Below, piece by piece: positions 4,263 to 28,152 of a stretch of DNA of 64,000 nucleotides. The translations under genes and the position numbers were made by a program. The notes below the pieces were generated by a model. It was not told where the DNA came from, made no database searches, and saw only the letters and a list, made by a program, of their open reading frames with translations. Positions within the stretch are counted from its first letter, which is position 1; each line of letters starts with the position of its first letter. The stretch comes from an uncultured Desulfobacter sp. (GTDB lineage Bacteria > Desulfobacterota > Desulfobacteria > Desulfobacterales > Desulfobacteraceae): contig NZ_OY762229.1 in assembly GCF_963665355.1 (NCBI RefSeq), positions 186,001-250,000 of the forward strand, read 5' to 3'.

Positions 4263-4529
4263 TACGATCTCCTTTTCTGTTCTTAGAACCTTACATAAAA
4301 GCTTCCGCCACATGCGGAAAATACATTTAGAAGCGAATCAGATCTGTTTGTTACGGCAAAAAGTTTAATTAATATAAAAGATGGTGGACGAAACAACCTC
4401 GCTTACTTATTGGGCATTCTATCTAAAAACAACGTCATTGGCAACATATCATAATCGTTTAAGCGGGCAAAAATCCATATCAGACACCGGGTTTATCTTT
4501 GCACCCCAAAGCAAGGTGTCGTTTGATTC

Positions 4530-7908: not shown

Positions 7909-10677
7909 ATGGCAAACATGATGTTTGAACTCAAAGGGAAAAGATGTTCGTTCAGACTGTGGCGATGGCGGTTCGTCTGGGTTTTTACTTTTCTTCTTTG
8001 CTTACAGACAGCCCTTTTTGCATGGGAAAAAGTCCCGGAAGCAATAACCGTTGTTTACAGTACAGACTGTGTGCCGTTCCATTTTCAGAACAACGATTTT
8101 TTTCCTGCTGTAAAACAAGGACGCACCGAACTGTTAAGGATGATCACGGCGGGCATGAACCAGATCACAAGCCATGAGTCCCGGCATATTGCCAGGGAAT
8201 GGGCATCCGGACAAAAAAAACCAGATACCGACACTTTGATCATTGCGATGGACAGGCACTGCCCGCCCCTGACAATGATGGATACACAAGGAGACCCCAG
8301 CGGACTTTTAGTGGAGATGTGGCAGTTATGGAGTGAGAAGACCCGGACCCCGATTACATTTCGTCCATCCAGTTGGGAGGAGAGCGTCGACGCGGTAAAA
8401 AACGCAAAAGCAGATATCCACTCAGGACTATTTAAGAATGATGAAAGATCTCAATGGATGGACTTTTCAATTCCTATTTACCGGTCTGAGACCGCCCTGT
8501 ATTTCAAAAAGTCCACCCCGGATTTTTCCTTGAAGGATCTTGCCGACTACAGGGTCGGGGCACTGGCAGGTTCTTATCAGGCAGATTATCTGACCCGGTA
8601 TTTCCCCAAAATCAACACGGTGCCTCAAAGCGATGGAGAGGCTATGATCTTTTCCCTTCTGAAAGGAGATGTTGCAGCCATTCTTCATGAAACCATGACT
8701 GTGGAAGCAGATCTGAACCGTATGGGCCTGTCCGGCAGGTTGAAAAAAGGATCCCAGAGCGTGATGAACAATGCCATCCATGCAGGGGTTGCAAAGCAAA
8801 ATAAAAAAATGCTGGATCTGATCAATGAAGGGTTTGCCGCCATCGGGCAAAATAAACTGGCCGAAATTGAAAGCCGATGGATTCCAAGGCAGGAAAACCG
8901 GTTTTATTCAACCAAATCCCAAGAGGTTGTATTAAACGAGGAAGAAAAACTGTTCCTGGCCAACCATGCGCCTTTGACCTTCAGTGAAGTCAACTGGAAA
9001 CCCATGTCAATTGTTGACGGCACCAATCAATTTGACGGCATTATCGCTGATTATCTGGATCTGATCACACAGCGCAGCGGTCTTCGGTTTAAATTTTACC
9101 AAAGTGACACCTGGGAGCAGGTTCTTAAAAAGTATATTGACGGGGATATCGACGTGGTCCCGGCATTGGCGAAAACAGATAAAATTGACAGACCCATACT
9201 TCGTTCCAAACCCTTTGTGCGGTTTCCCCTTGTGATTGTCACCCTGGACAATGCGACCGCCCCATCCGATGTGTCCCAGCTGAAAAACCGCAAAGTTGCC
9301 GTGGGAAAAGGTTACACCAGTTATCATTACCTGAAAAACAACTATCCAGAGATAGAGCTTATTGAGACCGACGATGTCAAATCCGGCCTTCTGCTGCTGG
9401 CCAACCGCAGAGTATCTGCATTTGTGGGCCATATGGCGGTTGTCACCAGCTGCATCCAGGAAAATGGATTAACCAATCTCAAGATTGCCGGAGAAACAGA
9501 TTACATTTTTGAGCACTGTATCGGGGTGGATCCCCAATACACTGCGGCCGTATCAATCATTAACAAAGTTCTGGATACCATGGCAGATCAGGAGCACCAA
9601 AAAATTTATAATCGCCATATCAGCGTACATTATGAAAAAGGTGTTGATTATTCGCTGATTTTAGAGGTGATGGCCGGGACCTTGTTTTTCGGGGGCTTTG
9701 TCCTTTACTGGAACCGTAAATTATCCCGGGAAGTGACGGAAAGGAAATTAACCGAGCAGCGTCTGGTGGAAAATGAGCGCAAAACCCGGGCCATGAGCGA
9801 AGCCATCCATGACGGTCTGGTGATGATTGATGAAAACGCTAAAGTGATGTACTGGAACCATGCCGCTGAAAATCTGTTCGGAATTAAAGCGGAAGATGCC
9901 ATGGGCAGGGACATGCATGGTTTGATTGCACCGGGACAATACATTGAAAAGGCCAATGAGGGCCTGATGCGGTTTGCAAAAACCGGCCGGGGAGCCGTGG
10001 TTGGCAAACTGCAGGAGATTACCGCCCGACACAACGACGGAACAACCTTTCCAGTTGAAGTCGGTGTATCTTCATTCCAGATCGGGGAGAACTGGTATGC
10101 CGTAGGCACCATCCGGGATATCACGGACCGTTTGAACGCCCGGGAAACTGTCAACGCGATTCGTGCTGAACTCCAGCAGATCTTTGACAACACCCATGTG
10201 GGCCTTTTTTTACTGAATTCTGCCAACCAGATTCAACGCTGCAATGAACGAAGCGCCCAGATTCTGGGGTATGATTCACCCGTACAGATGTGCGGCATTG
10301 ATCTTGCGCAAATACACCTTAACTGCGAAAGCCACCATGTGTTCATTGAAAAATGCCACGCCACGCTGGATAAGGGTGAACAGGTCCAGATGGAGTATCA
10401 GCTAAAGAAAAAGGACGGCACAACGGTCTGGTGTTCGCTTTCAGGCAAATCCCTTGATAACGGAAACCCAATAGATCTGAACAAAGGTGTTATATGGGCG
10501 ATGGATGATATCACCGAGGAAATAAAAACCCGCACGGCGCTTCATGAAAATTTAAAGGAGCTGGAACGATTTTACAAGATGGCAATAAACCGGGAGGAAA
10601 AAATGATCGATCTTAAAGCAGAGGTCAATCTTCTATTAAAGCAAACGGGACAACAAGAAAAATATATCGTCAGGTAA
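7909..10677 (+). CDS. Membrane sensor: two periplasmic solute-binding domains plus two PAS domains, no kinase
   Basis: 922 residues. A signal peptide (FVWVFTFLLCLQTALFA) is followed by two family-3 type solute-binding domains (about 100-330 and 345-575). One membrane helix (about 583-602) leads to two cytoplasmic PAS domains (about 620-745 and 755-880) and a C-terminal coiled coil. No HisKA, HATPase, GGDEF or receiver is present, so it must signal by contact. It heads a run of tightly spaced genes, and the RsbR-like gene starts 44 nt downstream. I infer that the coiled coil speaks to the stressosome-like proteins. The start is uncertain: ATG codons at 7909, 7918 and 7921 all have weak ribosome binding sites. 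Confidence 0.85.
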   Translation: MANMMFELKGKRCSFRLWRWRFVWVFTFLLCLQTALFAWEKVPEAITVVYSTDCVPFHFQNNDFFPAVKQGRTELLRMITAGMNQITSHESRHIAREWASGQKKPDTDTLIIAMDRHCPPLTMMDTQGDPSGLLVEMWQLWSEKTRTPITFRPSSWEESVDAVKNAKADIHSGLFKNDERSQWMDFSIPIYRSETALYFKKSTPDFSLKDLADYRVGALAGSYQADYLTRYFPKINTVPQSDGEAMIFSLLKGDVAAILHETMTVEADLNRMGLSGRLKKGSQSVMNNAIHAGVAKQNKKMLDLINEGFAAIGQNKLAEIESRWIPRQENRFYSTKSQEVVLNEEEKLFLANHAPLTFSEVNWKPMSIVDGTNQFDGIIADYLDLITQRSGLRFKFYQSDTWEQVLKKYIDGDIDVVPALAKTDKIDRPILRSKPFVRFPLVIVTLDNATAPSDVSQLKNRKVAVGKGYTSYHYLKNNYPEIELIETDDVKSGLLLLANRRVSAFVGHMAVVTSCIQENGLTNLKIAGETDYIFEHCIGVDPQYTAAVSIINKVLDTMADQEHQKIYNRHISVHYEKGVDYSLILEVMAGTLFFGGFVLYWNRKLSREVTERKLTEQRLVENERKTRAMSEAIHDGLVMIDENAKVMYWNHAAENLFGIKAEDAMGRDMHGLIAPGQYIEKANEGLMRFAKTGRGAVVGKLQEITARHNDGTTFPVEVGVSSFQIGENWYAVGTIRDITDRLNARETVNAIRAELQQIFDNTHVGLFLLNSANQIQRCNERSAQILGYDSPVQMCGIDLAQIHLNCESHHVFIEKCHATLDKGEQVQMEYQLKKKDGTTVWCSLSGKSLDNGNPIDLNKGVIWAMDDITEEIKTRTALHENLKELERFYKMAINREEKMIDLKAEVNLLLKQTGQQEKYIVR

Positions 10678-10721
10678 TTGAACATCGTAACAACAAACAG
10701 CAACCAAAGGAGATACGTCTG

Positions 10722-11522
10722 ATGAACAATCCGGGCATTGGTCAAATTGACGGGACCCTGGCAGTAAACATTCTCCAGCAGATCCCCACCCCGATTATGG
10801 CGGTCAACCGTGGCATGGCAGTCATATTTCTTAACAGGGCGGGACTAAAGATACTAGGCAAATCCTGGAAAGAAATCCAGGGAATGCCATGCCGGGAGGT
10901 TTTTCAATCCCGGCATTGCGGCACGGATGAGTGCCGGATGACGCAGGTGATGGACGGGGGACAGACGGTCACCTCCCGCAATGAGATGAAAGTGAACGAC
11001 AGATATATTCCCATTGAATACACCGCCGCAGCCATGAAAGATGATCAGGGAAATATTGTGGGAGGGCTTGAATATATCCTTGATATCACAGAACGGGTCC
11101 GCCAGGAGAACAAACTTAAAGAGCAGAGCCGGACCATCATGGAAATTTCAACCCCTGCCATAAAACTGTGGGACAGGGTGGTCATCCTGCCGGTGGTGGG
11201 GGTAGTGGACTCCCTGAGGGCCCAGCAGATGATGAATACCATGCTCACAAAAATCATGGAAACTGCGGCAAAGGTGATCATCCTGGATATCCAGGGCGTG
11301 GCGGCCGTGGATACGGCTGTGGCCAATCATCTGATTAAAATCGCCAAAGCCACCAAGCTGATGGGCTGCCGCTGTATTATTTCCGGCATTTCACCTGCAG
11401 TTGCACAAACACTGGTTCAACTGGGCATCGAACTGGGGGAGATCTCCACCAACTCCACACTGAAGGACGCGCTTTCAGATGCGTTCAAACTGATGGATTT
11501 AGAGGTCCGGCCAAAAGGTTAA
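10722..11522 (+). CDS. PAS-STAS protein, RsbR-like stressosome component
   Basis: 266 residues. An N-terminal PAS domain (about 15-130) carries the cysteine cluster CGTDEC. A short linker helix joins it to a STAS domain (about 145-262). The STAS matches RsbR closely: DIQGVAAVDTAVANHL, GISPAVAQTLVQLGI. Thr198 in VDTAV corresponds to the Thr phosphorylated by RsbT in Bacillus RsbR, and a second Thr follows in AVAQT. RsbR proteins form the stressosome shell with RsbS and hold RsbT. AAAGGAG lies 9 nt before the ATG. The next gene is the single-STAS partner, 5 nt away. Confidence 0.9.
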   Translation: MNNPGIGQIDGTLAVNILQQIPTPIMAVNRGMAVIFLNRAGLKILGKSWKEIQGMPCREVFQSRHCGTDECRMTQVMDGGQTVTSRNEMKVNDRYIPIEYTAAAMKDDQGNIVGGLEYILDITERVRQENKLKEQSRTIMEISTPAIKLWDRVVILPVVGVVDSLRAQQMMNTMLTKIMETAAKVIILDIQGVAAVDTAVANHLIKIAKATKLMGCRCIISGISPAVAQTLVQLGIELGEISTNSTLKDALSDAFKLMDLEVRPKG

Positions 11523-11527
11523 AATTA

Positions 11528-11938
11528 ATGGGTAAAGAGTTAAAACATTCCGGGGCAGCCCTTCATCAGGTGGGTGAATTCATGATTGCATCCATACACA
11601 ACTATTCGGATGAAAGCGGTATCTTTGCAACAGGCAACGCGATCCTGAACAGGTTGAGACAGGACACGGCCAAAGGCGTGGTCATTGATTTATCGGAGGT
11701 AACGATTCTAAGCACCAAAGAATTTTTTATCCTTAAAGATATGGCCAAAGCCATTGCCGTGATGGGGACAATCACGGTTCTATCAGGTTTTCAACCGGGT
11801 GTGGCAGCCTCATTGGTGGATTTTGACACAAATTTTGATGACATTTTGACCGCACGAAACACAGATGATGCCCTGGAAATTTTAGCAAATCATGCCATGT
11901 TAAATCGTGCCAATGGAACCTGGCCAAAAGGATTTTAA
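11528..11938 (+). CDS. Single STAS-domain protein, RsbS-like
   Basis: 136 residues forming one STAS domain (about 15-125), slightly longer than Bacillus RsbS. The phosphorylation loop IDLSEVTILSTKEFFIL keeps Ser/Thr residues where RsbS has its target serine. In the stressosome RsbS binds RsbT until phosphorylated. It lies between the RsbR-like and RsbT-like genes with gaps of 5 nt each, the classic rsbR-S-T order. A SpoIIAA-type anti-anti-sigma factor is the alternative, but no anti-sigma or sigma gene is nearby. Confidence 0.88.
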   Translation: MGKELKHSGAALHQVGEFMIASIHNYSDESGIFATGNAILNRLRQDTAKGVVIDLSEVTILSTKEFFILKDMAKAIAVMGTITVLSGFQPGVAASLVDFDTNFDDILTARNTDDALEILANHAMLNRANGTWPKGF

Positions 11939-11943
11939 TACCG

Positions 11944-12366
11944 ATGACAAATGCCACAACAAGTTTGAATGAGCAGGCAACCTTTGAACTGTATGAACCG
12001 TCGGACAACGCCCAGGTGGTATTCACGGCTAGAAAAATGCTGGCAGGGATGGGATTTGACCCCACAAGACAGTATTTAATTGCATCTGCGGTGTCTGAAT
12101 TATCCACCAACATCATCCGGTATGCCCAAAAGGGAAAAGTTACGTTAAATGTCATTCACAATGGAGACAAGGCAGGATTTCAAGTTCATGCCCAGGACCA
12201 GGGGCCGGGCATCAGTGATATGGACAAGGCCATGAAAGAAAATTACAGCTCCGGCAACGGACTTGGACTGGGCCTGCCCAGTGTCAAACGGATTATGGAT
12301 GAATTTCAGATTCAATCGGCCCCCGGCGAAGGCACCCGGATAACAGCCATAAAATGGATGGATTAG
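11944..12366 (+). CDS. RsbT-like serine/threonine kinase (HATPase_c, anti-sigma type)
   Basis: 140 residues with the GHKL ATPase boxes: N-box SELSTNIIRYA, G1 DQGPGISD and G2 GLGLGLPSVKRIMDEF. This matches RsbT, the switch kinase that phosphorylates RsbR and RsbS and then leaves to activate its target. In Bacillus the target is the phosphatase RsbU. Here no RsbU, RsbV, RsbW or sigma-B gene is visible. The gene is followed at once by the phosphatase gene and then by a hybrid kinase, which is the likely receiver of the signal. Confidence 0.9.
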   Translation: MTNATTSLNEQATFELYEPSDNAQVVFTARKMLAGMGFDPTRQYLIASAVSELSTNIIRYAQKGKVTLNVIHNGDKAGFQVHAQDQGPGISDMDKAMKENYSSGNGLGLGLPSVKRIMDEFQIQSAPGEGTRITAIKWMD

Positions 12367-12369
12367 TTG

Positions 12370-12969
12370 ATGGAACCAAGCGGGCAGATCATTGATTTTC
12401 ACATTGAAAAAAAAGCCTTGAGCGGAGAGCCCGACGAGTGCGGAGACACAGGATTAATCAAGATGTACGACAATTTTTGTTTCCTGGCCCTGGTTGATGT
12501 GCTGGGACATGGAAAGCCTGCGGCCCGGGAGGCGCTGCTTTCAAAGGATTACCTGGACCATAATTATACAAAGCATCTCACCGACATTATCAACGGCATG
12601 CATGAGTATCTAAGAGGAACCCGTGGCGCCGTGGCCGCGGTCTGCAGGTTGGATTTGACCACCGGTATTCTTCAATATTCAGGCATGGGTAATATTCATC
12701 TGCGACTATTTGGCACAAAACAGGAATCCCTTGTTACAAAAGACGGGGTGATCGGCTACATCATGCCCTCCCCTGTCCAGGACCAGACCCGTCTGGTATC
12801 CGGCGATGTTCTGGTTATGACCTCGGACGGGATAAAGGAGCACTTTGATCCCCATGCCTATCCGAGAATCACCACGGGACGGGCAAAGGAGATCTGCAAC
12901 AATTTCATCAAACTCCTTGGGAAAGGCACGGATGATATGTCATGCATTGCATTGAGGTTCGGAATATGA
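12370..12969 (+). CDS. SpoIIE/PP2C-family phosphatase, RsbX-like
   Basis: 199 residues forming one PPM phosphatase domain without a sensor part, as in RsbX. Metal-binding acids are seen in [20 protein letters not shown] and [10 protein letters not shown]. RsbX resets the stressosome by dephosphorylating RsbR and RsbS. The ATG at 12370 follows a TTG that overlaps nothing. The stop overlaps the next start as ATGA, so the phosphatase and the hybrid kinase are probably translationally coupled. Confidence 0.87.
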
Positions 12970-15800
12970 TCGAACTTGCAAACTTTTCACTGGGCACAAA
13001 ATCAGGTTTGAAACAAATAGGGCTCAAACTTTACAACATGTCACTCTGGCTTGGTTTTAACGATATTCAGGCCGCCCGATTCGCAACTGTTTTTACAGAA
13101 CTGGTCTCTTGGGACAATATGTCTGAAGATAAAAAAACACAAGCCGCCATAGAACTGGACAGCCTGGAATACGGCCATGCCATACGCATCAAGGTCCAAC
13201 CGTTTGACCCTGCTAAAGAACCTTTTGCAAAAAATTATTTCGACCACAGTGAAGTATCCGGAACAGATCAAAAGCAGACATGGTTTACCGGCGTCAAAGC
13301 ACTGCCTGATCCGGACTTTCATCTGTCCCAGCTCCTGATTGAAAAAACCCGGGAGATGCTGGGAAGGCCGCTCAAAGAAGAGCTGATCAATGACCTGGTA
13401 AAAAAGAATCGGGAACTGAAAACCGCCCAGCACAAAACCCACATGGCCACCCTGGAACTTAAGGAACAGGTGGAGGAACTTGCCAGGGCCAAACGAGCCA
13501 TGCTCAATATCATGGACGATCTTGATGAAGCCAAAAAGCAGGCGGAATCCGCCACCCGGGCCAAAAGTGATTTTCTGGCCAACATGAGCCATGAAATCAG
13601 AACACCGATGAACGCCATCATCGGCATGACGCATCTGGCACTTCAAACCGAAATGACCCCTAAGCAAACAGATTATTTAACCAAAATTGACGGGGCAGCC
13701 AATGCCCTTTTGGGCCTGATTAATGATATCCTGGATTTTTCCAAAATCGAAGCCGGCAAACTGGATATGGAAATGGTGAATTTTTCCATTGAGTCCATCA
13801 TGTCGCAAGCCTCGGATCTGGCGGCGGTCAAGACATCGGAAAAGGGACTGGAGCTGCTTGTCAAAATTGCCCCGAATCTGCCCAAGATGCTGACGGGCGA
13901 CCCATTGCGCCTGAAACAGATCCTGGTGAACCTGGCCGGAAATGCCGCTAAATTCACGGAAAAGGGTGAAGTGGTCATGACATGCGACATTGCCCGGAGG
14001 GATGACAAGAGTGTGTTGCTGAAATTTTGCGTTAAGGACACCGGCATCGGAATGACACAAGAGCAGCAAAGCATGTTGTTCCAGGCGTTTTCCCAGGCCG
14101 ACACCTCCACAACCCGCAGATATGGCGGAACAGGCCTTGGGCTTACCATTTCAAAACGGCTGGCTGAAATGATGGATGGAACCATTGGTGTTTCGTCCGA
14201 GCATGGCAAAGGCTCAACCTTTTATTTTACAGCACGATTTGGGATTGCCGACAGCAATGTCTATTGCAAACAGGTTGAAATCGATGACCAGCTTCATCAA
14301 ATGCGTGTTCTGGTGGTGGACGATAATGCCACGGCCCGGGAAATCTTTGAATCATATCTGGGGTCCATGGGATTCAGGACCGAAAGCGCATCCAACGGCC
14401 AGACCGCCATTGATCTGATTCAACGCGCCTCAAAGACCGATCCGTTTCGAGTGGTGCTCATTGACTGGCAAATGCCGGGCATGGACGGCATACAGACATC
14501 CCAGAACATCATTAAATTACCAGGCCTTGAACCAAAGCCCAAAATCATTATGGCAACAGCTTATGACCGCAGTGAAGCCACTGAGCATTCCAGGGGGGTA
14601 AAGTTAAACGGCATAATTGTCAAACCCGTCACCCTGTCCGCACTGTTTGATGCCATCATGGTCGCCTTTGGACGCGGGGTTCAAATCAAATCACGGCAGG
14701 ATCACCCCAATCACGATGAACTTGACCATATCCGCGGGGCATGGATACTTCTGGTGGAAGACAATGAGATCAACCAGGAAATTGCCGTGGAAATTTTAGA
14801 GGGAGCCGGTCTGATTGTTGATGTGGCCGGCAATGGGGAACAAGGAGTTCAGGCGGCCCTTGGAAAAAAATATGATCTGGTTTTGATGGACATCCAGATG
14901 CCGGTGATGGGCGGCATGGAGGCCACAGAACGCATCCGGAAAGTCAAATCAGCTGACACACTTCCCATTATTGCCATGACCGCCCATGCCATGTCCGGTG
15001 ACCGTGAAAAAAGTATAAAAGCAGGCATGCAGGAGCATGTTACCAAGCCCATCAATCCGCCGGAGTTATTCAATGCTTTGATTCAATGGATAAAACCTGA
15101 AAAAATAGATACCTCGTCCACTATTCCGGTTACCTGTCAGCCCGGAACCCCACCGGAAATACAGACGACAGATGACCTGCCCCAGTGGCTGCCCGGCATT
15201 GACATGGCCCAGGGACTGGACAGGATCAACAACAACAAAATACTGTATAAGCGACTGTTGTTAAAAGTCCGAAGGGACTATGGGGATGCGGCTGAACGAT
15301 TATCGTCCTTGATAAAAGACAACGACCTTGAACAAGCCCGGCGCCTGGCCCACTCCATCAAAGGTGTAGCAGGAAATCTGGGGGCCGGAAACCTTCAGGC
15401 TGCGGCACAGGTTATTGAGGCCGGCCTGAAGCCTTCGCCGGACCAGATGTTACTTTCCAGGGAAGAGATGGAACAGTTTAACATGGAAATGGCCGTGGTT
15501 CAAAAGGGACTGGCCATGCTCAAAGAAGAAGCAACACCAACGGATAACGCTTACCCGGTCGCGGATACTGACGAATTGATTCAATGCATTGAAGAACTGA
15601 TTCCTTTGCTGAAAAAAAGTCAGGCCAAACAGGTGAAACTATGTGCAGCAAAAATCAATACCCTGGGATGGCCCGAGGAGTTATTGAACGATATCCAGGA
15701 GATCACCAACCTTGCCGGACGCTATAAATTTAAAGAAATACTGCCCATTTCCCAGGCTGTTTACAAAAAGCTTCAAATCCTGAATGGACACAACGCCTGA
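12966..15800 (+). CDS. Hybrid histidine kinase with degenerate RsbT-like N-terminus, two receivers and Hpt
   Basis: 944 residues, soluble. Residues about 1-110 resemble an RsbT-type ATPase fold ([18 protein letters not shown]), but the N-box asparagine and the G boxes are gone. A coiled coil (about 140-195) follows. Next are HisKA with His209 in [10 protein letters not shown], HATPase with [12 protein letters not shown], a first receiver (Asp500), a second receiver (Asp642) and an Hpt domain (His796 in [13 protein letters not shown]). The start at 12966 gives the ATGA overlap with the phosphatase. An earlier in-frame ATG (12942) would bury it deeper in that gene. I infer that the N-terminus docks to the RsbR/S/T/X set and feeds a phosphorelay. 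Confidence 0.88.
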
Positions 15801-15826
15801 AGCCCCAAAAAAATAGGAGGCCTGCA

Positions 15827-16930
15827 ATGAAAGAGAACAGAGAGTTTGCCATTCTGGTGGTGGATGATACCGAAACCAATGTTGATATATTAATGGACAC
15901 ACTGGGTGACGATTACGACATCCGGGTCGCCATGGACGGGGAGTCTGCCCTGGAAAACGTGGCCGAAGACAAACCGGACCTTATACTTCTTGATATCATG
16001 ATGCCCGGCATGGACGGTTATGAGGTGTGCAGGCGTTTGAAAGACGACCCGGCCACCCATGATATCCCCGTGATCTTTTTAACTGCCATGACCGATGAAC
16101 AGAACGAAGCCAAAGGACTGGCCATGGGGGCGGTGGATTACGTCACCAAACCCTTTTCCTCCGAGCTGGTCAAGGCCCGGGTATCCAACCAGCTGGAGCT
16201 GAAAAAACACCAGGACCATCTCCAGGAACTGGTGGATTTGAGAACAAAGGAACTGGCGCTGACCCAGGAAGTGACCATATACAGCCTGGCCAGTCTGGCA
16301 GAAACCCGGGACCCTGAAACCGGCGGCCATATTTTAAGAACCCAGCGCTATGTCAAGACTCTTGCACATCAACTTAAAAACACACCCGAATTTGAAAAAA
16401 CCCTGAATAATGAGGTGATTGACCTGCTTTACAACTCAGCACCTCTCCATGATATAGGCAAAGTCGGGGTGGCGGACAGCATCCTTCTTAAACCCGGCAA
16501 ACTCACCGATGAAGAGTTTGCTGAAATGAAAAACCATACGATTTACGGCAGAAATGCCCTCAAAGTGGCTGAAGAGAAACTGGGGGATAATTCATTTATG
16601 CAGTATGCCCGGCAGATCGCTTATACCCACCATGAAAAATGGGACGGATCAGGATATCCCAACAGCCTTAAAGGGGAAGGAATCCCTGTTTCCGGGCGGC
16701 TGATGGCCATTGCAGACGTCTACGACGCCCTGATTTCCAAAAGGGTCTATAAACCACCCTTCAGCCATGCCAAGGCCATTAGTATTATAACAAAGGAGAG
16801 TGGTACTCATTTTGATCCGTTAATGGTTGAACACCTTTTGATCATCAAGGACCAGTTTTTACAAATTGCCTTTACCCTGGCAGACTCCGAGGAAGAAAAA
16901 GCAGCCCTCACCGCAGAAGGCAATGCCTGA
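15827..16930 (+). CDS. Response regulator with HD-GYP c-di-GMP phosphodiesterase domain
   Basis: 367 residues. The receiver (1-125) has DDTE, phospho-acceptor Asp56 (LILLDIMMPGMDG) and Lys in TKPFSS. The HD-GYP domain (about 145-345) keeps all expected motifs: HILRTQRY, HDIGK and HHEKWDGSGYP. It should hydrolyse c-di-GMP when activated. AGGAGG lies 6 nt before the ATG. The gene follows the hybrid kinase by 26 nt, and that kinase is the natural phosphodonor through its Hpt domain. Its 3' end runs close to the next kinase gene. Confidence 0.92.
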   Translation: MKENREFAILVVDDTETNVDILMDTLGDDYDIRVAMDGESALENVAEDKPDLILLDIMMPGMDGYEVCRRLKDDPATHDIPVIFLTAMTDEQNEAKGLAMGAVDYVTKPFSSELVKARVSNQLELKKHQDHLQELVDLRTKELALTQEVTIYSLASLAETRDPETGGHILRTQRYVKTLAHQLKNTPEFEKTLNNEVIDLLYNSAPLHDIGKVGVADSILLKPGKLTDEEFAEMKNHTIYGRNALKVAEEKLGDNSFMQYARQIAYTHHEKWDGSGYPNSLKGEGIPVSGRLMAIADVYDALISKRVYKPPFSHAKAISIITKESGTHFDPLMVEHLLIIKDQFLQIAFTLADSEEEKAALTAEGNA

Positions 16931-16952
16931 AACCGGGCAAAGGAACCCATTC

Positions 16953-19900: not shown

Positions 19901-22097
19901 CCATGAAATCCGCACCCCCATGAATGCGATCCTTGGCATGAGCCATTTGACCCTGAAAACACAATTGAATCCCAAACAGCGGAACTACATTGAAAAAATG
20001 CACCAGTCAGCCCTCAATCTTCTGGGCATCATCAATGATATTCTTGACTTTTCCAAAATCGAAGCCGGCAAACTGACCATCGAAAAGATTGATTTTAACC
20101 TCAACGAAATCCTGCACAACCTGTCGGGGCTGGTGTCTGCCAAAACCCGGGAAAAGGGTCTGGAACTGATATTCAACATGGAGAGGAACCTGCCGGTTCT
20201 TCTTAGGGGAGATCCCCTGAGATTAGGACAGATTCTGCTTAATCTGGCCAATAATGCCGTTAAATTCACCGAAACAGGGGAAATTGAAATCTGCATTTTC
20301 GGGGTCGACGTTCAGCCCCATGAAGCCATGCTTAAGTTTGAAGTACGGGATACAGGCATTGGCTTAAATCAGGCCCAGCAGGCCAATCTGTTTCTATCCT
20401 TTCACCAGGCAGACACCTCCACCACACGGCGTTACGGTGGGTCCGGGCTCGGCCTTTCCATCTGCAAAAAGCTAAGTGAAATGATGGGTGGCACCATCGG
20501 GGTCACCAGCCAGACGGGCAAAGGTTCCACATTCTGGTTCACAGCCAGATTTGACAGAACTGATATGGAAACACCGACACAGTTTATCCCCGACGCATTA
20601 AATGGCCTGAAAACCCTTGTGGTGGACGACAATCAGACCTTTTGCCATGTCATGGCAGGTTATCTGGAGGCATTCTCTTTCCATGTGGAGAGTGCGTTTT
20701 CAGGCCGTGCCGCCCTGGAGATGGTCAAAGCGGCAGAACAGGAGCAGAACGGCCAATATGATTTAATACTCATGGACCGGCAGATGCCGGATATGGACGG
20801 CATTGAGACAGCCCGGCATATTATCCAGGATGCAGGACTGAAAAGCAGACCCCCAATCATCATGGTGACGGGCAATGACCGGCAGGATGTGACGGAGCAG
20901 GCCGGCAAACTGGGCATAAAAACCATTCTTCTCAAGCCGCTGACGCCGTCCATGCTCTTTGACGGAGTCATGGCGGCCTTTGGCCGGCGAGAATCAGATG
21001 CGGTCAACCACATGGTCAAACGATCGGAAAACCTGCCGAAAAATTTTGACGATATCCGGGGCGCCAGACTGCTGCTGGTGGAAGACAATGAAATAAATCA
21101 GGAACTGGCTGTGGAACTGCTTGAACAGGAGGGTTTTTTTGTTGAGGTGGCGGATAACGGACAAATCGCAGTGGAAATGGTGTCCGCCAAAGCCTTTGAT
21201 GCCGTGCTCATGGATCTGCAGATGCCGGTAATGGATGGACGGACTGCCACCCGGCACATTCGCACTCTTAATCTTGGGGCGGGACAGCCGCCCATCATTG
21301 CCATGACCGCCGACGCCATGAGTGGTGTCAAAGAGGAGGTCCTGGCCATCGGAATGAATGATTACGTGACCAAACCCATTAATCCGTCAGAATTTTTCAA
21401 GGTCCTGGTCAAATGGATAACGCCAGGCAAGCGGGAAAGCAAAAAACCAAACACCGGTGCTGGACAAGCCGACGAACCGGGCCTTCCCGTCTTAAAAGGC
21501 ATTGATTCGGCCCAGGGACTGGCCAGGATGGGTCAAAAAAAAGAGCGCTACATCAGAATACTTGCAAAATTTCATTGTGAAAACCAGGATACAATAGCCG
21601 CACTTGAGAAAGCAATCCAGGCCCAGGATCAGTCAACCGCCGTCCGCATCGCCCATACCGTTAAAGGACTTGCCGGCACCATCGGCGCCCAGGCGCTTCA
21701 GACGGCTGCCGCGGCTCTGGAAGCCGGTCTGATATCGGACCTGGATTCAAATCAAAATAAAACACTGCACCGAAACTTTAACATGGAACTTGGGACGGTT
21801 TTAAAATCCCTGTCCCACCTGCCCGGGGCAGATGACCCCCCAAGTGCCCCAGGATCCCGCAAAACCGGCGAGCCCGGGCAGTTATTGCAACTCCTCCAGG
21901 CCCTTGCCCCCCACATCGGCATACACCAGCCCAAACCTGCAAAAAAGGTGCTTGAAAAAATCAATGAATTTGCCTGGCCCGGGCAATACAGAACAGGGAT
22001 TGATGAACTAAACACCATGGTCGGCAAATACAGGTTCAAGGAGGCCGAAGCTGTTTTAGAATCGTTGATATCCGAGCTGTCTGCATTCAATGGCTGA
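16953..22097 (+). CDS. Membrane hybrid histidine kinase: solute-binding domain, extracytoplasmic sensor, two PAS, two REC, Hpt
   Basis: 1714 residues. Signal peptide, solute-binding domain family 3 (about 30-270), membrane helix (about 288-308), a second helix (about 322-345), an extracytoplasmic Cache-like region (about 350-660) and a third helix (about 668-692). Then a coiled coil, two PAS domains (about 725-850 and 855-965), HisKA with His984 ([10 protein letters not shown]), HATPase (GSGLGLSICKKL), receivers with Asp1275 and Asp1421, and Hpt with His1568. The start at 16953 has AAAGGA 8 nt upstream. ATG 16923 overlaps the previous stop but lies too close to its purine run. Confidence 0.9.
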   Translation: MPDIGQIKNLITYLVILALFTLPWQVWAKSLPGLTDKEVQWLTAHPRIQIGVMDAWPPMDFIDSTGVPAGIGVDYIQAMNALLGGRLTVVPGPFAKNLEKVIRGELDAVMDITPRPDRQKILNFTSQYLNIPHVIVGPRNGAYYGSENELAQKTVALEKGFYNVTYFRRNYPDVKIKIYPDTALALDAVARGEADAYAGNRAVAAYIMEKEVMATLKFHGRLNKPGSVLAIGTPKNLPELTAILEKTLNAIPDSQKQSIISHYVSPSGKPQSPTAPVETITLKTLGMLIAIFSGTILLMLLILSRVMRQKRAAALFGTTLFRSLIVAGLSVFVLTISGLGWGLMENTRNSTIKDMAAHLRLLLALTQDRTDMWLTDRRRSICHLGTQPTLVAITRQLLWDYDAKKQMTASLVQADARTFFAANRQGFSYTGFCIISPDRLVISSHDNAQIGTQHPATMEYPGRLERAFSGETLFIPPTTTAGNSSESKTKSDMLVISPVVTPENDIIAVIALMFDARKNLAQFTRSPGRWATDDIYAFDRTGRMITPSRFDDQLKEIGLLKPNESSALTLYLRNPGGDMTRGFHPRVPRPEQPLTHMAEHAIQLRSQMAGQYIVQRDLPIKENMQGYLDYRGVPVFGAWLWNPDLDLGITAEIDIEEAMAGFHKIRLAVFIILGVTLVLSVLSVLLVLVLGDRTRKTLEAAKEELEEKVGERTLELKENQELFSALLESAPDPMLACDEDGKIVLINSQTELLLGYERSELLGAGVDMLLPEQADTCMQEVKSQFLSARDTRRKMGFSIEQTARAKNGNLIPVEISLSPIQSRSGLLVISSLRDISERKAVEEALNASKENLRRILDNSPVAITSSTRGVIGFCNPKFVEMFGVKEGEQYSHLYVNPEKRDELVKRLSPDQPVLNQELQMYSATGGILDVMVSFLARNNGEQGIMAWMMDITERKKAVQQIITAKDMAEEATRAKSDFLANMSHEIRTPMNAILGMSHLTLKTQLNPKQRNYIEKMHQSALNLLGIINDILDFSKIEAGKLTIEKIDFNLNEILHNLSGLVSAKTREKGLELIFNMERNLPVLLRGDPLRLGQILLNLANNAVKFTETGEIEICIFGVDVQPHEAMLKFEVRDTGIGLNQAQQANLFLSFHQADTSTTRRYGGSGLGLSICKKLSEMMGGTIGVTSQTGKGSTFWFTARFDRTDMETPTQFIPDALNGLKTLVVDDNQTFCHVMAGYLEAFSFHVESAFSGRAALEMVKAAEQEQNGQYDLILMDRQMPDMDGIETARHIIQDAGLKSRPPIIMVTGNDRQDVTEQAGKLGIKTILLKPLTPSMLFDGVMAAFGRRESDAVNHMVKRSENLPKNFDDIRGARLLLVEDNEINQELAVELLEQEGFFVEVADNGQIAVEMVSAKAFDAVLMDLQMPVMDGRTATRHIRTLNLGAGQPPIIAMTADAMSGVKEEVLAIGMNDYVTKPINPSEFFKVLVKWITPGKRESKKPNTGAGQADEPGLPVLKGIDSAQGLARMGQKKERYIRILAKFHCENQDTIAALEKAIQAQDQSTAVRIAHTVKGLAGTIGAQALQTAAAALEAGLISDLDSNQNKTLHRNFNMELGTVLKSLSHLPGADDPPSAPGSRKTGEPGQLLQLLQALAPHIGIHQPKPAKKVLEKINEFAWPGQYRTGIDELNTMVGKYRFKEAEAVLESLISELSAFNG

Positions 22098-22228
22098 AGA
22101 TATGGATAAACTGACGCAAAACAGTATTCCGGGAGTGAGACCTCTCATCCTCAATTTTTAATTGTACAATCAGATGAATTCAAATAAAGTAGTGAATATT
22201 ATTTTATATCGTCATTGGGGAACAAATT

Positions 22229-23257
22229 ATGACACAGGGTTCCGATAAACCTACGATTCTCATTGTTGATGATGTCCCGGACAACATTACCGTTTTGTCC
22301 AGCATCCTGGTTGACTACAACTTGAAAGCGGCAAACAACGGTGCCAAAGCCCTGGAAATCGCATCGCGCTTCAAACCGGACATTATTCTGCTTGACATCA
22401 TGATGCCTGAAATGGACGGCTATACCGTGTGCATGCGACTGAAGCGTGATTTTAAGACCAAAGACATCCCTGTCATATTTGTCACGGCAATGGATGAGGT
22501 GTCGGACGAGGCCCGGGGCTTTGAACTGGGTGCGGTCGATTACATCATAAAACCCGTCAGTCCCCCCATTGTCCGGGCAAGGGTGAAAACACACCTTCAC
22601 CTGTACGATCAAAACAGGGCACTGGAGCACCTGGTCCATGAACGGACAAAAGCGCTGAACAAAAGCAGGCTTGAAATCATCCGCAGATTAGGCCTTGCCG
22701 CGGAATACAAAGATAACGAAACAGGCATGCACGTCATCCGTATGAGTTATTACTGCAAAGTCATGGCAACGGCAATGGGAATGGGTAACGCAGAGGCTGA
22801 ACTGTTATTACACGCCTCACCCATGCACGACATCGGCAAAATCGGCATTCCGGACAGTATCCTCAGCAAGCCGGGGAAACTGGATGCCAAAGAAAGAGCC
22901 ATCATGGAAACCCACACGGAGATCGGGGCCCGGATTATCGGGGAACATGACAGTGCGCTTTTGGATATGGCACGGACAGTGGCGCTGACCCACCATGAGA
23001 AATGGGACGGTACAGGCTATCCCCGGGGGCTTAAGGGAGAGGATATCCCCCTTGTGGGCCGTATCGTAGCTATTGCGGATGTCTTTGACGCCCTTGTCAG
23101 CAACCGGCCCTATAAAAAAGCGTGGCCCGTTGAAAAAGCTGTGGCCCTTATCAAAGAAGAGTCGGGGAAACATTTTGACCCCGGGGTGGTGAATGTGTTT
23201 GTGGCGAACCTGGATGAGATACTATACCTTTCTAAATTGAATGCAGACCCGGATTAG
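22229..23257 (+). CDS. Response regulator with HD-GYP c-di-GMP phosphodiesterase domain
   Basis: 342 residues with the same layout as the HD-GYP protein at 15827: receiver (1-125, Asp56 in IILLDIMMPEMDG) and HD-GYP domain (about 150-340) with HDIGK and HHEKWDGTGYP intact. It sits between two giant hybrid kinases and is probably the output of one of them. The 131-nt gap before it contains a possible promoter (TTGTAC, 17 nt, TAAAGT at 22162-22190), so it may also be transcribed separately from the upstream run. Confidence 0.92.
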   Translation: MTQGSDKPTILIVDDVPDNITVLSSILVDYNLKAANNGAKALEIASRFKPDIILLDIMMPEMDGYTVCMRLKRDFKTKDIPVIFVTAMDEVSDEARGFELGAVDYIIKPVSPPIVRARVKTHLHLYDQNRALEHLVHERTKALNKSRLEIIRRLGLAAEYKDNETGMHVIRMSYYCKVMATAMGMGNAEAELLLHASPMHDIGKIGIPDSILSKPGKLDAKERAIMETHTEIGARIIGEHDSALLDMARTVALTHHEKWDGTGYPRGLKGEDIPLVGRIVAIADVFDALVSNRPYKKAWPVEKAVALIKEESGKHFDPGVVNVFVANLDEILYLSKLNADPD

Positions 23258-23316
23258 CCTTTTGATGCAGATCGCGCTAAAAAAAGTACGACACCAAACT
23301 AAACACAAGGAGTATC

Positions 23317-26300
23317 GTGAAGCTTCGTAACTTTTCCAGATTGTCCGTACTTGCTGTGGTTGTTTTTTTTATCCTGTTTCACCTGATTGCTTCGGAATTC
23401 ATCGTCAAAAAAGGATTTCAAACCCTTGAGGATGATCACACACGATTTCTGGTGAACACTGCCGGACGCGCATTGGACCATAATCTTGTGATTCTTGACA
23501 AACTGTTGTTAGACTGGGCCAACTGGGACGATTTGTATGATTTCATGCAGGCCCCGACCCCGGAATTTGTCCAATCCAACCTTCCCATGAGTACATTTGT
23601 TGACCAGTCCCTGGTGTGCGTGATGCTCCGGAACAAAAAAGGAGAAGTGATTTATCAACAAGCCGTTAACCAGAATGCAGAGTTTGACAGTGAACTTGCC
23701 CATAAAATTTTGGGGCAAATCGCAATGAAGTGTCCGTCTCTGGCAGAAAACCAGGACAAACAGTCAGGACTGCTCTTGCTTAACTCCGGTGAACTGGCGA
23801 TGATCGCAAAAAGACCGGTCTTAACCAGCCAGGCCTCAGGGCCGCCCGTGGGAACCATCATGTTTGTCCGTTTTGTATCCCAGGACATACTCAATGAGAT
23901 ATCCTCATTGCTGGGTGTGCAAATTGCCCTGATGCCTCTGGATGAAAAACAGGATATGGCGGCCAAGGCCATGCAATCCCCCGGCAAGGTGTTTATTGAA
24001 CATGAAGGTAAAAACCACTCAGAGGGATTCAACGCTATCCTTGATATCAAGGCTGAGCTTACGGCTCTTATGAAGGTTACTCCAAAGCAGATTCTTTTTC
24101 AACACGGTGAGAAGATAACAAACTATTTTTTCTACGTTTTCACATCTGCTGTTCTGCTGTTCAGTCTTTTGGGATATTTTCTTCTCCATAAAAAAATCCT
24201 GAACCCCCTGGAATCGCTCATGCATCAAATTTCCCGGCGCGATGATCTCTCCGGGAAAGCACCGTCCCTCTTCATCAAGGGGAACGATGAAATCCACGAA
24301 TTGAGCGTCTGTATCAACGACATGGTTGATCACATTGACAAATCAAAACAAGACGTTTTAGAAAAATCTATAAAAATAAGCAAAAACGAACGGTTTCTCA
24401 ACCAGTTGTTCAACTCCATTGAGGCGGGAATTCTACTCGTAGACCCGGACACCAGGATTATTGTTGATATAAATAAATATGCCCAAAAGCTTACAGGGTA
24501 CTCAAGAGATGAGGTTATAGGACATGTGTGCCACAGGCTGACATGTCCGTCCGAGGTAACCCAGTGCCCTCTTCTGGATTTAAAACAACCCAAAGATATG
24601 TCCAAACGAAAACTTCTGCTTAAAGACGGTTCAACCATCCCAATCATGAAATCAGCTGTTTTTATAAACAAAGGAGACCAGTTGCTTTTGCTGGAAACCT
24701 TTGTGGACATCTCCGAGACCGAGTACAACCGCCAGCAACTTGAAAAGGCCAAAAAAGAACTGGAAGATAAAGTCGAAGAGCGCACAGCCTATCTGCGCGG
24801 CATCATTGACACAGCTTTCAACGGCATCATTGTTGTTGACGGCCAGGGGGTTATCAATGAGTTCAGCCCGGCGGCCCAGCAGATATTCGGCTACACCAGA
24901 AAAGAGATTATCGGACAAAGAATTAACATACTGATGCCCGAGCCCTACAGCCGCGAGCATGACAAGTACATTCACAACTACCTTGAAACAGGCGTGGCAA
25001 AAGTAATCGGCAATCAGACGGTGGTCCCGGCACTGAGAAAGGACGGCTCTCAATTCTCAATGGAAATCGCCCTCAATACGGACATTGTTAACGGAGAACC
25101 GATATTTGTGGCCGTCATGAGTGATGTTACAGAACGCATCAAAGTGGAGGAAGCCGTCGCCAAGGAACGTAAACGGCTCAAAGAGATACTGGACACAAGT
25201 CCCGTGGGTGTGGTGATCACCGTTGACGGTGTTGTTAAATTCAGTAACCCCAGCATGACGGAAATGGGTTTCGAGTCCGGTCAAAAAACCATGGGCACCT
25301 ATATTGATCTCCAAAGCAGGACACACCTGCTTGACGAACTTGACAAAAAGGGCGTTGCCTTAAACTTTGAAACCCAGTTTCGAAATAAAAACGGGCATCC
25401 CATTGATGTCCTGATATTTGCATACAACTATAATTATGAAGGCAACCAGGCTATTCTGGGCTGGATTATTGATATTACCCACCGCAAGTCCATGGAAAAC
25501 GAAATCCGGGAAGGACGGACCAAATTCCAAAGACTTGTGGAGGAGCTGGGTGGAAGGTTTGTCGTCTTCAGCCACAAACCGGACGGAGAGATTTTGTTTA
25601 TCAGTGAAGGGGTAAACTCCGTGTTCGGTTTAGACAAAGAGGACGTCCAGGGGAAACGATGGCAGGATGTCATCAACTGGCTTCCCGGAGAGAGGGAAAA
25701 AATGGTGGAGGCCTTCAGGAATTTCCTGCAAAATGATTCTGTCTCCCACGAAACCGAGGCCTCGTTCATACACGCGGATGGAAGCATACGAATGCTGCTC
25801 ATCTCCGAACATGCGGTTACGGATGCCACCGGGCAACTGGTCACCATTGAAGGCATTATGGAAGACATCACCGCCCGTAAAGAAACGGAAAAGGTCCTGG
25901 CCCAGGCCAAGGAGGCGGCCGAAGAGGCCACCAGGGAAAAATCCAATTTTCTGGCAAATATGTCCCATGAAATCCGCACCCCCATGAATGCCATTATCGG
26001 CCTGTCCTATCTGGCCCTGCAAGGAGATCTTGACGATAAACAACGCGGTTACATTGACAAAGTGCACAACTCGGCCGACTACCTTTTAGGCATTCTCAAT
26101 GATATTCTGGATTTTTCCAAAATTGAGGCGGGTAAGCTTGATATGGAGCAGACCAGCTTTTTCCTTGAGGATGTGTTTGACCACATTGGCAGCGTGGTGG
26201 GTCTCAAAGCCCAGGAAGCCGGGCTTGAGCTGATGTTTGACCTGCCCTGCACCCTGCCCACGGCACTTGTGGGAGATCCCCTGAGGCTGGGGCAGGTACT

Positions 26301-28152
26301 GCTCAACCTCGGGAACAATGCAGTGAAGTTTACACCCAAGGGGGAAGTGGTGATCTCCGCACGCGTGGCAGAAGAGAGTGAAAAGGAAGCGACCTTCAAG
26401 TTCGCCATACGCGATACCGGCATCGGCATGACAAAAAAGCAGCAGGGAAAACTCTTCCAGCATTTCAGCCAGGCCGATACCTCCATCACCCGGAAATACG
26501 GCGGGGCCGGACTGGGTCTGGCCATCTCCAAAAAACTGACGGAAATGATGGGGGGCAGGATATGGGTGGAAAGTACACCTGATGCGGGCAGCATATTTTT
26601 CTTCACAGCCTGTTTTGCCAAACAGGCTCAAACAGAAACCCTGATCCGGCATAACAAAAATTCTGCCCCCCTGCATATCCTTGTGGCCGATGACAACGCC
26701 ACGGCACGGTCCATTTTCCTGGAGATGCTGACAGGATTTGGTTTCACGGCAGATCTGGCGGAGAGCCCCGAAGCCGCGCATCGTTTGTTAGAACAGCAAA
26801 ATATTGCCCGGCCCTACGATCTGGCCATTCTGGACTACTCCTTTTCCAATACCAACGGCATTGAAATCGCGCGGACCATGCAGGCCAACGCAACAAGAAC
26901 ACATGCGCCCATGGTTATCCTGGTGACAGCCTACAACAACATGAATATCACCCATGAGGCCAGGGATGTACACATTATAAAAGAAGTTTTAAGCAAACCC
27001 ATCATGCCCTCCACCATGTTTGACGCCATCATGATGGTCAAACAAGGTAAGCTTCGCAGGGAGAGCAGATCAATGCTCCGGCAGGACGAAATAACTCAGC
27101 AAACCGCCAGATTGAAAACCGCCAAGATTTTGATCGTGGAAGACAATGATATCAACCAGGACGTAGCGGCAGACTTGCTGACCAATCACGGCATTGATTA
27201 CAAGATTGCCGAAAACGGACAAGTCGCCTTGGAGATGCTTGAAAAAGACCATTTTGACGGCATTCTCATGGACTGCCAGATGCCGGTGATGGACGGCTAC
27301 ACCGCCACCAGGAAAATCAGAGAGGATAAACGGTTCAAGGACCTTCCCATCATTGCCATGACCGCCAACGTCATGGCCGGAGACAGGGAAAAATCCCTAG
27401 CAGCCGGAATGAATGACCACATAGGCAAGCCCATCAGGATCAAGGAGCTCTTTGAAGCTATGGACAGATGGATCAAACCGGCAATTTCAATGCAGCCCCA
27501 GCCTTCCCGGGAAACTGAAAACAAATTGGGCAACATTCCGGGTATAGACACCACCGCGGGCCTGGAGACCGTCCAGGGCAATCATGAACTTTATCTCAGA
27601 ATGTTAGATAAATTTTTCAATCGTTACCGTGAGTTCGAAAAAGAGTTCATTGCCGCCAGACAGGATAAAGATGAAACCGCGCCCATGAGATGCGCACACA
27701 CCCTTAAAGGATTAGCCGCCAATATCGGTGCCCTCGGTATCAGGGAAAAAGCAGCCATCCTTGAATCGGCCTGCAGAGATCATCAACCGGAACAGGAGAT
27801 CAACACACACCTTCGGGACATCGTTCAGGCGCTCTCCCGGATAATGGATAAATTGCCTGCATCTGAAGCGTCCAGCACCTCTGTGGCTGTGGAAGTCACG
27901 AGGACCGCAGATATCATCCCCATGCCGGAAAGAACCGTTAATTTCATTAAGACGCTGGCCCGGATGATTGATGAATCAGACATCGGGGCATTACGGATTG
28001 TGGCTGAGATGCAGGACGTCCCCGGTATAGAAAACTCTTCACAATATGACCAATATGCTCAAATAATGACTGCAGTGACCAGAGCTCTGGAGGATTACGA
28101 TTTTGATCTTGCCAAAAAACATATTAATGAACTTGATCATCTGATTTCATAA
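23317..28152 (+). CDS. Membrane hybrid histidine kinase: CHASE4, HAMP, four PAS, two REC, Hpt
   Basis: 1611 residues. Membrane helix (about 8-28), periplasmic CHASE4-type sensor (about 35-255, with [14 protein letters not shown]), second helix (about 268-292) and HAMP (to about 345). Then four PAS domains (about 360-480, 490-615, 620-730 and 735-860). The first PAS has the cysteine pattern C-C-CPLLDL. HisKA has His884, HATPase has [12 protein letters not shown], the receivers have Asp1173 and Asp1319, and Hpt has His1461. The first receiver keeps its Asp, but the usual MPGMDG is replaced by SFSNTNG. The GTG start has AAGGAG 4 nt upstream. Last gene of the co-directional block. Confidence 0.9.

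Follow-up and report, generated by a model that had tools for sequence, protein, structure and literature searches.

A degenerate RsbT-like domain as a candidate adaptor between a minimal stressosome and c-di-GMP turnover in an uncultured Desulfobacter

We analysed a stretch of 64,000 nucleotides from an uncultured Desulfobacter sp. (contig NZ_OY762229.1, positions 186,001 to 250,000; hereafter the window), in which a set of stressosome genes, rsbR-rsbS-rsbT-rsbX (RSTX), is directly followed by a hybrid histidine kinase, HK1, and by a REC-HD-GYP protein, HDGYP1. The first ~120 residues of HK1, which have no Pfam annotation, form a domain that we call pseudo-RsbT, related to RsbT in sequence and devoid of its ATP motifs. 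This domain escaped a first-pass annotation of the same DNA, made from its letters, and is the best clue to how stressosome and kinase are coupled. We consider it rather probable that HK1 is the client of this stressosome and HDGYP1 its enzymatic output, acting on cyclic diguanylate monophosphate (c-di-GMP), with docking through the pseudo-RsbT domain. With comparable confidence, we regard the degenerate RsbT copy as a second general stressosome adaptor beside RsbU_N, serving many outputs in about seven phyla and supplying the missing link where the target of RsbT is unassigned. A worn-out copy of a switch kinase fold may be the way in which many bacteria connect the stressosome to different outputs.

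A complete RSTX module followed by a hybrid kinase

The central genes and segments are as follows.

10722..11522, + strand: rsbR, PAS-STAS protein (Pfam)
11528..11938, + strand: rsbS, single STAS domain (Pfam, 22.0 bits; alignment)
11944..12366, + strand: rsbT, GHKL serine kinase with N-box and DxGPGI (Pfam; alignment)
12367..12969, + strand: rsbX, single-domain SpoIIE (PP2C-type) phosphatase, possible start ATG at 12370 (Pfam)
12966..15800, + strand: HK1, pseudo-RsbT domain, helical linker, HisKA, HATPase, REC, REC, Hpt (Pfam; conserved start; motifs)
12966..13301, + strand: putative pseudo-RsbT (degenerate GHKL) domain of HK1 (AlphaFold, Foldseek, hhalign, motif tests)
13374..13511, + strand: predicted long helix from the pseudo-RsbT domain to HisKA (AlphaFold secondary structure; residues 145-190 counted from 12942)
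15827..16930, + strand: HDGYP1, REC and HD-GYP, likely target of HK1 (Pfam; HD and HHEKWDGSGYP motifs; its kin follow HK1-type kinases)

RsbR combines a sensory N-terminal PAS domain with a C-terminal STAS domain, and rsbR is 67-88% identical in eight loci of the family. The STAS match of RsbS is slightly below the Pfam cut-off of 22.6 bits; the protein carries Thr63 at a position which is Ser or Thr in eight aligned relatives and which we take to be equivalent to the Ser59 phosphosite of B. subtilis. The ATP motifs of RsbT are intact (SELSTN and DQGPGI), and RsbX is a protein of 200 amino acids that matches SpoIIE. As read from its genes, the locus appears to encode a Vibrio-type minimal stressosome made up of RsbR, RsbS, RsbT and RsbX.

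The partners of the sigma B cascade do not lie beside these genes: as the first-pass annotation had stated, no sigma factor, RsbU, RsbV or RsbW was detected by Pfam among the ten genes of the cluster and eight neighbours, the window genes covered by the scan, and RsbU_N (PF08673) is absent from the whole genome (5.64 Mb, three contigs). SpoIIE, STAS and HATPase_c_2 proteins are present elsewhere in this genome, where we noted two likely partner-switching pairs, one of STAS and HATPase_c_2 (G000:C2 5493449-5494239) and one of SpoIIE and HATPase_c_2 (G000:C2 2826464-2827449). Crosstalk of these pairs with the RsbT of the window is possible.

The most likely start of HK1 is the Met at 12966, because it is the start common to relatives (M-I/T-x-LG), and a start at 12942 was set aside. 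From 12966 the gene overlaps the stop of rsbX as ATGA.

The N-terminal domain of HK1 appears related to RsbT

When 37 of these domains were compared with nine RsbTs by hhalign, the alignment scored 88.6% (E value 2.6e-6), against 0.4% for a control comparison of the domains with RsbS. An iterated search pulled RsbTs into the domain profile; it was repeated with the two sets kept separate and with reversed sequences as controls, none of which occurred among the cross-profile matches. The relation is made firm by bridge proteins, namely kinases encoded after rsbRST (L207, L208, L210, L198 and Paraburkholderia L104) whose N-termini match both the RsbT and the domain profiles (for L207, 2e-21 and 2e-13, respectively). 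The N-box Asn is kept in 4/5 and DxGxGI in 2/5 of these bridge kinases, L207 having neither the Asn nor the Asp. In a tree, all 37 domains form one clade with a support of 0.968, and six bridge kinases are placed between this clade and RsbT. Judging from these intermediate sequences, the N-terminal domain of HK1 is homologous to RsbT.

Both the N-box Asn and DxGxGI are absent from the window domain. Across the degenerate set, the Asn was found in register in one of 28 placed domains (L088; two of the 28 domains are themselves out of register) versus 51 of 55 placed RsbTs, and DxGxGI in one of 37 (L076, at a different position) versus 55 of 57 RsbTs. If the adaptor reading is true, the domain would be the inactivated duplicate of a signalling kinase, now employed to receive the signal of the kinase from which it was copied.

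Structure prediction points the same way. The window domain (8 sequences) and an Acetobacterium domain (L083, 22 sequences) were modelled with AlphaFold at a predicted local distance difference test score (pLDDT) of 81.0 and 81.1, respectively, and both models show the order strand-helix-helix-strand-strand-helix-strand-strand followed by long helices. Searched against the PDB with Foldseek, the window domain gave RsbW, SpoIIAB and UsfX entries as its top 16 matches (best E value 1.3e-4) and the Acetobacterium domain RsbW, SpoIIAB, UsfX and SiaB entries as its top 20 (best E value 1.1e-5), SiaB being found with the latter only; chains 6m36_A (RsbW), 6m36_B (RsbV) and 8ih8_A (RsfB) were checked, and the remaining chains of 6m36/6m37 and of other entries were assigned by alternating letters and length. 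The GHKL matches have a root-mean-square deviation of 3.5-5.8 A and a template modelling score by query of 0.34-0.46, and the match is therefore at the level of the fold. The domain is thus predicted to adopt a degenerate GHKL (RsbW/SpoIIAB-like) fold. RsbU_N, the other candidate for a docking domain in HK1, was ruled out, since it is absent genome-wide and an alpha/beta fold is predicted instead.

The domain recurs directly after rsbRST

The N-terminal 191 residues of HK1 served as the query against 86 family genomes. Nine matched, including that of the window, and each match is directly preceded by rsbR-rsbS-rsbT-rsbX (the match in L024 is a fragment). Widening the search to the class (389 genomes) gave 25 matches, 18 of which reach the N-terminal core; the other seven were excluded, six covering the coil only (profile positions 158-192) and one (G336:C198) positions 118-192. 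All 18 core matches directly follow rsbS-rsbT-rsbX with rsbR also present (on the other strand in L053; one match is a fragment).

Moreover, genome contigs were scanned with RsbT, rather than the kinase, as the query. This yielded 48 loci (8 of these contigs were already among the stretches retrieved before), which we assign, from their titles, to Desulfobacterota, Bacillota, Spirochaetota, Fibrobacterota, Victivallales, Atribacteria and Proteobacteria, including Zetaproteobacteria. An eight-sequence profile of the Desulfobacteraceae domain matched the gene after RsbT in 40 of the 48 loci (E <= 0.01), and a 37-sequence profile, built partly from these same loci, in 44 of 48, spread over about seven phyla. 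Among the four loci that gave no match, L058 has a 71-residue fragment, L095 a different arrangement, and in L097 and L101 the sequence ends 181 and 0 bases past RsbT.

Forty-three of the 48 genomes were searched whole (all except L054, L058, L060, L061 and L097). Matches were obtained in 42, and in 41 the scanned locus supplies the best one (in L098, as a piece of the gene). The sole domain-profile match in G429 (L095) is RsbT, and G434 (L101) gave none. One extra full-length copy, G420:C188, also adjoins RsbS-RsbT. Among the lesser matches, G395:C198 is the latter half of a split one, and the others are frames 131-266 residues long; those retrieved, together with those at scanned loci, are RsbT-like. 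A full-length domain away from rsbS-rsbT was found in none of the 43 genomes. Beyond these, 14 of 321 genomes matched in the class of the Legionellaceae genome and 20 of 395 in the phylum of the window. In each of the 37 further stretches retrieved (the match G694:C151 is not among them), a GHKL gene is accompanied by a STAS gene resembling rsbR or rsbS; many of the matches in them are not the degenerate domain but RsbTs, fusions of RsbT with SpoIIE, or kinase N-termini that resemble RsbT. RsbU_N was found in 7 of the 389 genomes of the class and the N-domain core in 18, with no genome shared, an overlap for which chance also predicts less than one.

A rival to any coupling is that the stressosome acts elsewhere and adjoins a phosphorelay/HD-GYP cluster by accident. 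In its favour, this genome has 24 HD_5 matches in 5.64 Mb or about one per 235 kb (the only genome so counted); other STAS, SpoIIE and HATPase_c_2 genes exist, and the genes beyond HDGYP1 (HK2, HDGYP2 and HK3, described below) are variable. Against this stand the start-stop overlap of rsbX and HK1, the order of RSTX and client across phyla, and the confinement of the full-length domain to the vicinity of rsbS-rsbT. Relatives and members of other phyla have the core set as well, and it is therefore not due to chance; we hold an unwired neighbourhood to be very improbable.

Two further arrangements were seen. In five rsbRST loci (L199, L205, L220, L222 and L223), a second RsbT-like gene lies right after rsbT and is followed by rsbX, and in six others (L191, L192, L195, L207, L208 and L211) the second RsbT-like copy is fused to an RsbX-like part.

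Outputs carried by the domain

Client domains were identified by Pfam on ten proteins, the sequence of L080 being incomplete. The domain heads hybrid kinases, a simple histidine kinase (L084), PAS-SpoIIE proteins (L067, L073, L076 and L079) and a SpoIIE protein (L057).

To describe what follows the clients, we classed them as kinases by their H-box (23 kinases, 13 others), and moved L077 and L084 to the kinases on the basis of BLAST and Pfam; loci with fewer than 1300 bases past the client were dropped (6 of 34 first called kinase and 2 of 10 first called other). A full REC-HD-GYP gene lies within 3 kb downstream of 17 of 25 kinase clients versus 0 of 11 other clients (Fisher p 1.5e-4, uncorrected for kinship), where eight of the 11 were assigned by Pfam (L057, L067, L068, L073, L076, L079, L094 and L100) and three (L092, L096 and L099) were counted as non-kinase solely by the missing motif. 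The HD and HHExxDGxGYP motifs are intact in HDGYP1 and in the second protein of this type in the cluster, HDGYP2, and both are probably c-di-GMP phosphodiesterases.

In a metagenome-assembled genome of the Desulfovibrionaceae (L068, 7956-9221), the domain is fused to an adenylate/guanylate cyclase, a possible link between stressosome and cAMP or cGMP. Two clients from Zetaproteobacteria/Mariprofundaceae, L094 (7115-8038, GGDEF) and L100 (7987-10494, PAS-GGDEF-EAL), are c-di-GMP enzymes without a phosphorelay.

Proposed coupling and its rivals

We propose the following sequence of events. RsbR and RsbS would hold RsbT; upon a signal at the PAS domain of RsbR, RsbT would phosphorylate the STAS proteins and leave the complex, which RsbX would reset, as is established for RsbRST elsewhere. 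Free RsbT would then contact the pseudo-RsbT domain of HK1, most likely as a pseudo-homodimer partner, and the helix between this domain and HisKA would convert the contact into a change of the kinase/phosphatase state of HK1. Phosphate would pass along a His-Asp-His relay within HK1 and on to the receiver of HDGYP1, altering c-di-GMP breakdown. RsbW and SpoIIAB are dimers, and the simplest reading of a dead copy of RsbT is that it pairs with RsbT. The proposal draws on sequence-level evidence: the genes and motifs, their conserved order, the homology of the domain to RsbT, the loss of its ATP motifs, and its spread over different outputs beside rsbRST.

Published work offers some support. According to passages of PMC12143880, RsbT acts on RsbU by way of a coiled-coil linker, and it is argued that linkers of this kind can be exchanged for those found in histidine kinases and cyclases; the helix predicted between the HK1 domain and HisKA fits this model. 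Jia et al., in the part concerned, place phosphosites of RsbT on a helix predicted to serve dimerisation and partner binding (PMC4976288). In V. vulnificus, where D1 and D2 denote the hybrid kinase and the REC-HD-GYP protein, transcription of D1 and D2 is described as parallel in its kinetics to that of rsbRSTX (passages of PMC9237108), which we count in favour of the coupling.

Several observations weigh against the proposal. A first hhalign comparison with eight domain sequences was weak (13.4%, E value 0.0021), and the separate profiles cross-match poorly, the domain profile recovering 12 of 65 RsbTs and the RsbT profile 4 of 58 domains at E < 1e-3. None of the 37 domains is recognised by a Pfam GHKL model (E <= 1), and a sequence search of the PDB with the domain profile retrieved no GHKL chain; the fold therefore rests on models, profiles and bridge sequences. 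For eight of the 25 kinase clients, a full REC-HD-GYP gene is missing from the following 3 kb. RsbT binding, the direction of the switch, phosphotransfer to HDGYP1 and c-di-GMP as the substrate are inferred for this locus. Finally, Heinz et al. 2022 report, in a passage that does not name the assay, that they failed to obtain a positive interaction of RsbT with D1 of V. vulnificus (PMC9237108); their two-hybrid tests of RsbT with RsbS or RsbR singly were also negative.

Given that the domain is a homologue of RsbT, and that the known complex partners of RsbT are STAS proteins, it could dock on the STAS core (RsbS/RsbR) rather than on RsbT. HK1 itself would then stay bound to the stressosome until phosphorylation of the core by RsbT released or switched it. 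Against this, GHKL switch kinases use their lid and nucleotide site on STAS partners, and neither is recognisable in the domain. Docking on the core would fit the reported failure to see an RsbT-D1 interaction (passages of PMC9237108), yet we judge it unlikely overall.

Another view makes RsbT an active Ser/Thr kinase that phosphorylates HK1, with the N-terminal domain serving just for dimerisation or substrate recruitment. Phosphorylation by RsbT of clients that lack RsbU_N is suggested in a passage of Heinz et al. (PMC9237108). By itself, however, it leaves the RsbT fold ahead of so many outputs unexplained, and we give it even less credence than docking on the STAS core. We thus retain the binding of free RsbT to the pseudo-RsbT domain of HK1 as the preferred reading.

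Comparison with known stressosome systems

The closest known counterpart is the rsbRSTX-D1-D2 locus of Vibrio, which shares RsbR-S-T-X, a hybrid kinase (D1) and a REC-HD-GYP protein (D2), with neither sigma B nor RsbU_N. We read this layout directly in Vibrio sp. THAF191d (L102), whose D2 is 50.5% identical to HDGYP1. Its D1 may have an N-domain homologous to that of HK1: it matches the N-domain profile with a full-sequence E value of 8e-5, the individual stretches being weak, shows the G-x14-E helix pattern and is placed in the N-domain clade of the tree. The two systems differ in the N-terminus of RsbR, which is a globin in Vibrio (published for V. vulnificus; by eye in L102) and PAS in the window, and in the extra kinases and extra HD-GYP protein of the window locus; moreover, D1 of V. 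vulnificus is described with a PAS domain (in part of PMC9237108), which HK1 lacks.

Passages of earlier papers described the V. vulnificus operon and its downstream two-component system (PMC3360785, PMC4260858), which was later portrayed as most likely taking part in c-di-GMP degradation, a D1 mutant swimming less (passages of PMC10014275); a listing in Heinz et al. includes stressosome loci with c-di-GMP and phosphorelay modules (PMC9237108). The layout and the proposal that it lowers c-di-GMP are of a known kind (PMC9237108, PMC10014275), so that the broad c-di-GMP reading of the first-pass annotation is not new. Its wiring fared better in part, through the linkage of RSTX to HK1 and the REC-HD-GYP genes behind most kinase clients; a single conserved wiring of all ten genes did not stand. 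The observation is confirmed and the wiring partly supported; it is the pseudo-RsbT adaptor that merits experimental work.

A stressosome output on c-di-GMP is also described for Moorella thermoacetica, whose MtG is a diguanylate cyclase (passages of PMC12143880). However, MtG joins RsbU_N to GGDEF, whereas the window has a pseudo-RsbT domain and an HD-GYP protein probably reached by phosphorelay. B. subtilis RsbT is likewise freed from the stressosome to meet an output protein, RsbU, with an N-terminal docking domain and a helical linker; RsbU_N is a four-helix bundle, in contrast to the degenerate GHKL alpha/beta fold predicted for HK1. The switch kinases RsbW, SpoIIAB and UsfX resemble the HK1 domain in predicted fold, but HK1-type domains have neither N-box Asn nor DxGxGI and are fused to outputs.

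Docking through a pseudo-RsbT domain seems to be the new part. We did not find such an adaptor in the open-access literature searched, and older subscription surveys could contain it. In the passages concerned, Heinz et al. did not detect RsbU_N in most of the downstream proteins considered (PMC9237108), and Jia et al. state that it is not known which protein RsbT of Vibrio brasiliensis acts on downstream (PMC4976288). A recognisable adaptor would give a sequence handle on the outputs of stressosomes, including those without sigma B; it would predict which enzymes are under stressosome control and turn the coupling into a simple binding experiment.

The ten-gene cluster, its variable members and neighbouring genes

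The central unit lies within ten open reading frames (7909-28152) that all run on the + strand and contain no internal stops, as judged from the reading-frame list and translation. Their Pfam-assigned products are a kinase-less SBP-PAS sensor, RsbR, RsbS, RsbT, RsbX, three hybrid kinases and two REC-HD-GYP proteins. The first-pass annotation had described just such a unidirectional set with a complete switch, three hybrid kinases and two HD-GYP proteins; all are present, the kinases being those at 12966-15800, ~16953-22097 and 23317-28152, and the first gene (7909-10677) having no kinase domain. The remaining members are as follows.

7909..10677, + strand: membrane sensor, two SBP_bac_3 and two PAS domains, no kinase domain (Pfam; translation)
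16953..22097, + strand: HK2, SBP, PAS, PAS, HisKA, HATPase, REC, REC, Hpt; variable neighbour (Pfam)
22229..23257, + strand: HDGYP2, REC and HD-GYP; variable neighbour (Pfam)
23317..28152, + strand: HK3, CHASE4, HAMP, PAS domains, HisKA, HATPase, REC, REC, Hpt; variable neighbour (Pfam)

From translation, HK2 probably starts at the ATG at 16953. The HAMP domain of HK3 scored 18.7 bits, under the Pfam cut-off. Motif tests found the H-box, receiver Asp, Hpt His, HD and HHExxDGxGYP motifs in the kinases and HD-GYP proteins; the first receiver of HK3 is non-canonical and did not match the receiver pattern.

RSTX-HK1-HDGYP1 is kept in all three same-genus relatives (G028, G025 and G020), which vary beyond HDGYP1. 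In G028, these genes are followed by HK2, another regulator, HDGYP2 (85% identical to that of the window) and HK3 (74%); G025 retains only a shortened HK2, and G020 has none of HK2, HDGYP2 and HK3. No SBP-PAS sensor was found in the stretches read of the three relatives. The conserved unit is therefore RSTX-HK1-HDGYP1, with HK2, HDGYP2, HK3 and the sensor as variable members. These differences rule out the ten genes as a single conserved operon; its variable members may act on the same c-di-GMP pool and are not fixed parts.

The sensor ends in the tail LERFYKMA..REEKMIDLKAEVN, which also occurs in L055 and L093, immediately upstream of rsbR. Similar SBP-PAS sensors precede rsbR in L055, L056, L058 (split over two frames), L060, L093 and L097. 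An extracellular signal may reach the stressosome through such a sensor.

Other genes of the window include a further c-di-GMP enzyme adjoining HK3, a dCache-PAS-GGDEF-EAL protein (28376-31237, - strand), and an additional HD-GYP-type protein (49893-51119, - strand). Upstream of the cluster are a PPDK_N/PEP-utiliser protein of 1029 amino acids (4632-7721) and, encoded on the opposite strand, a receiver-bearing HEAT-repeat protein (2619-4313).

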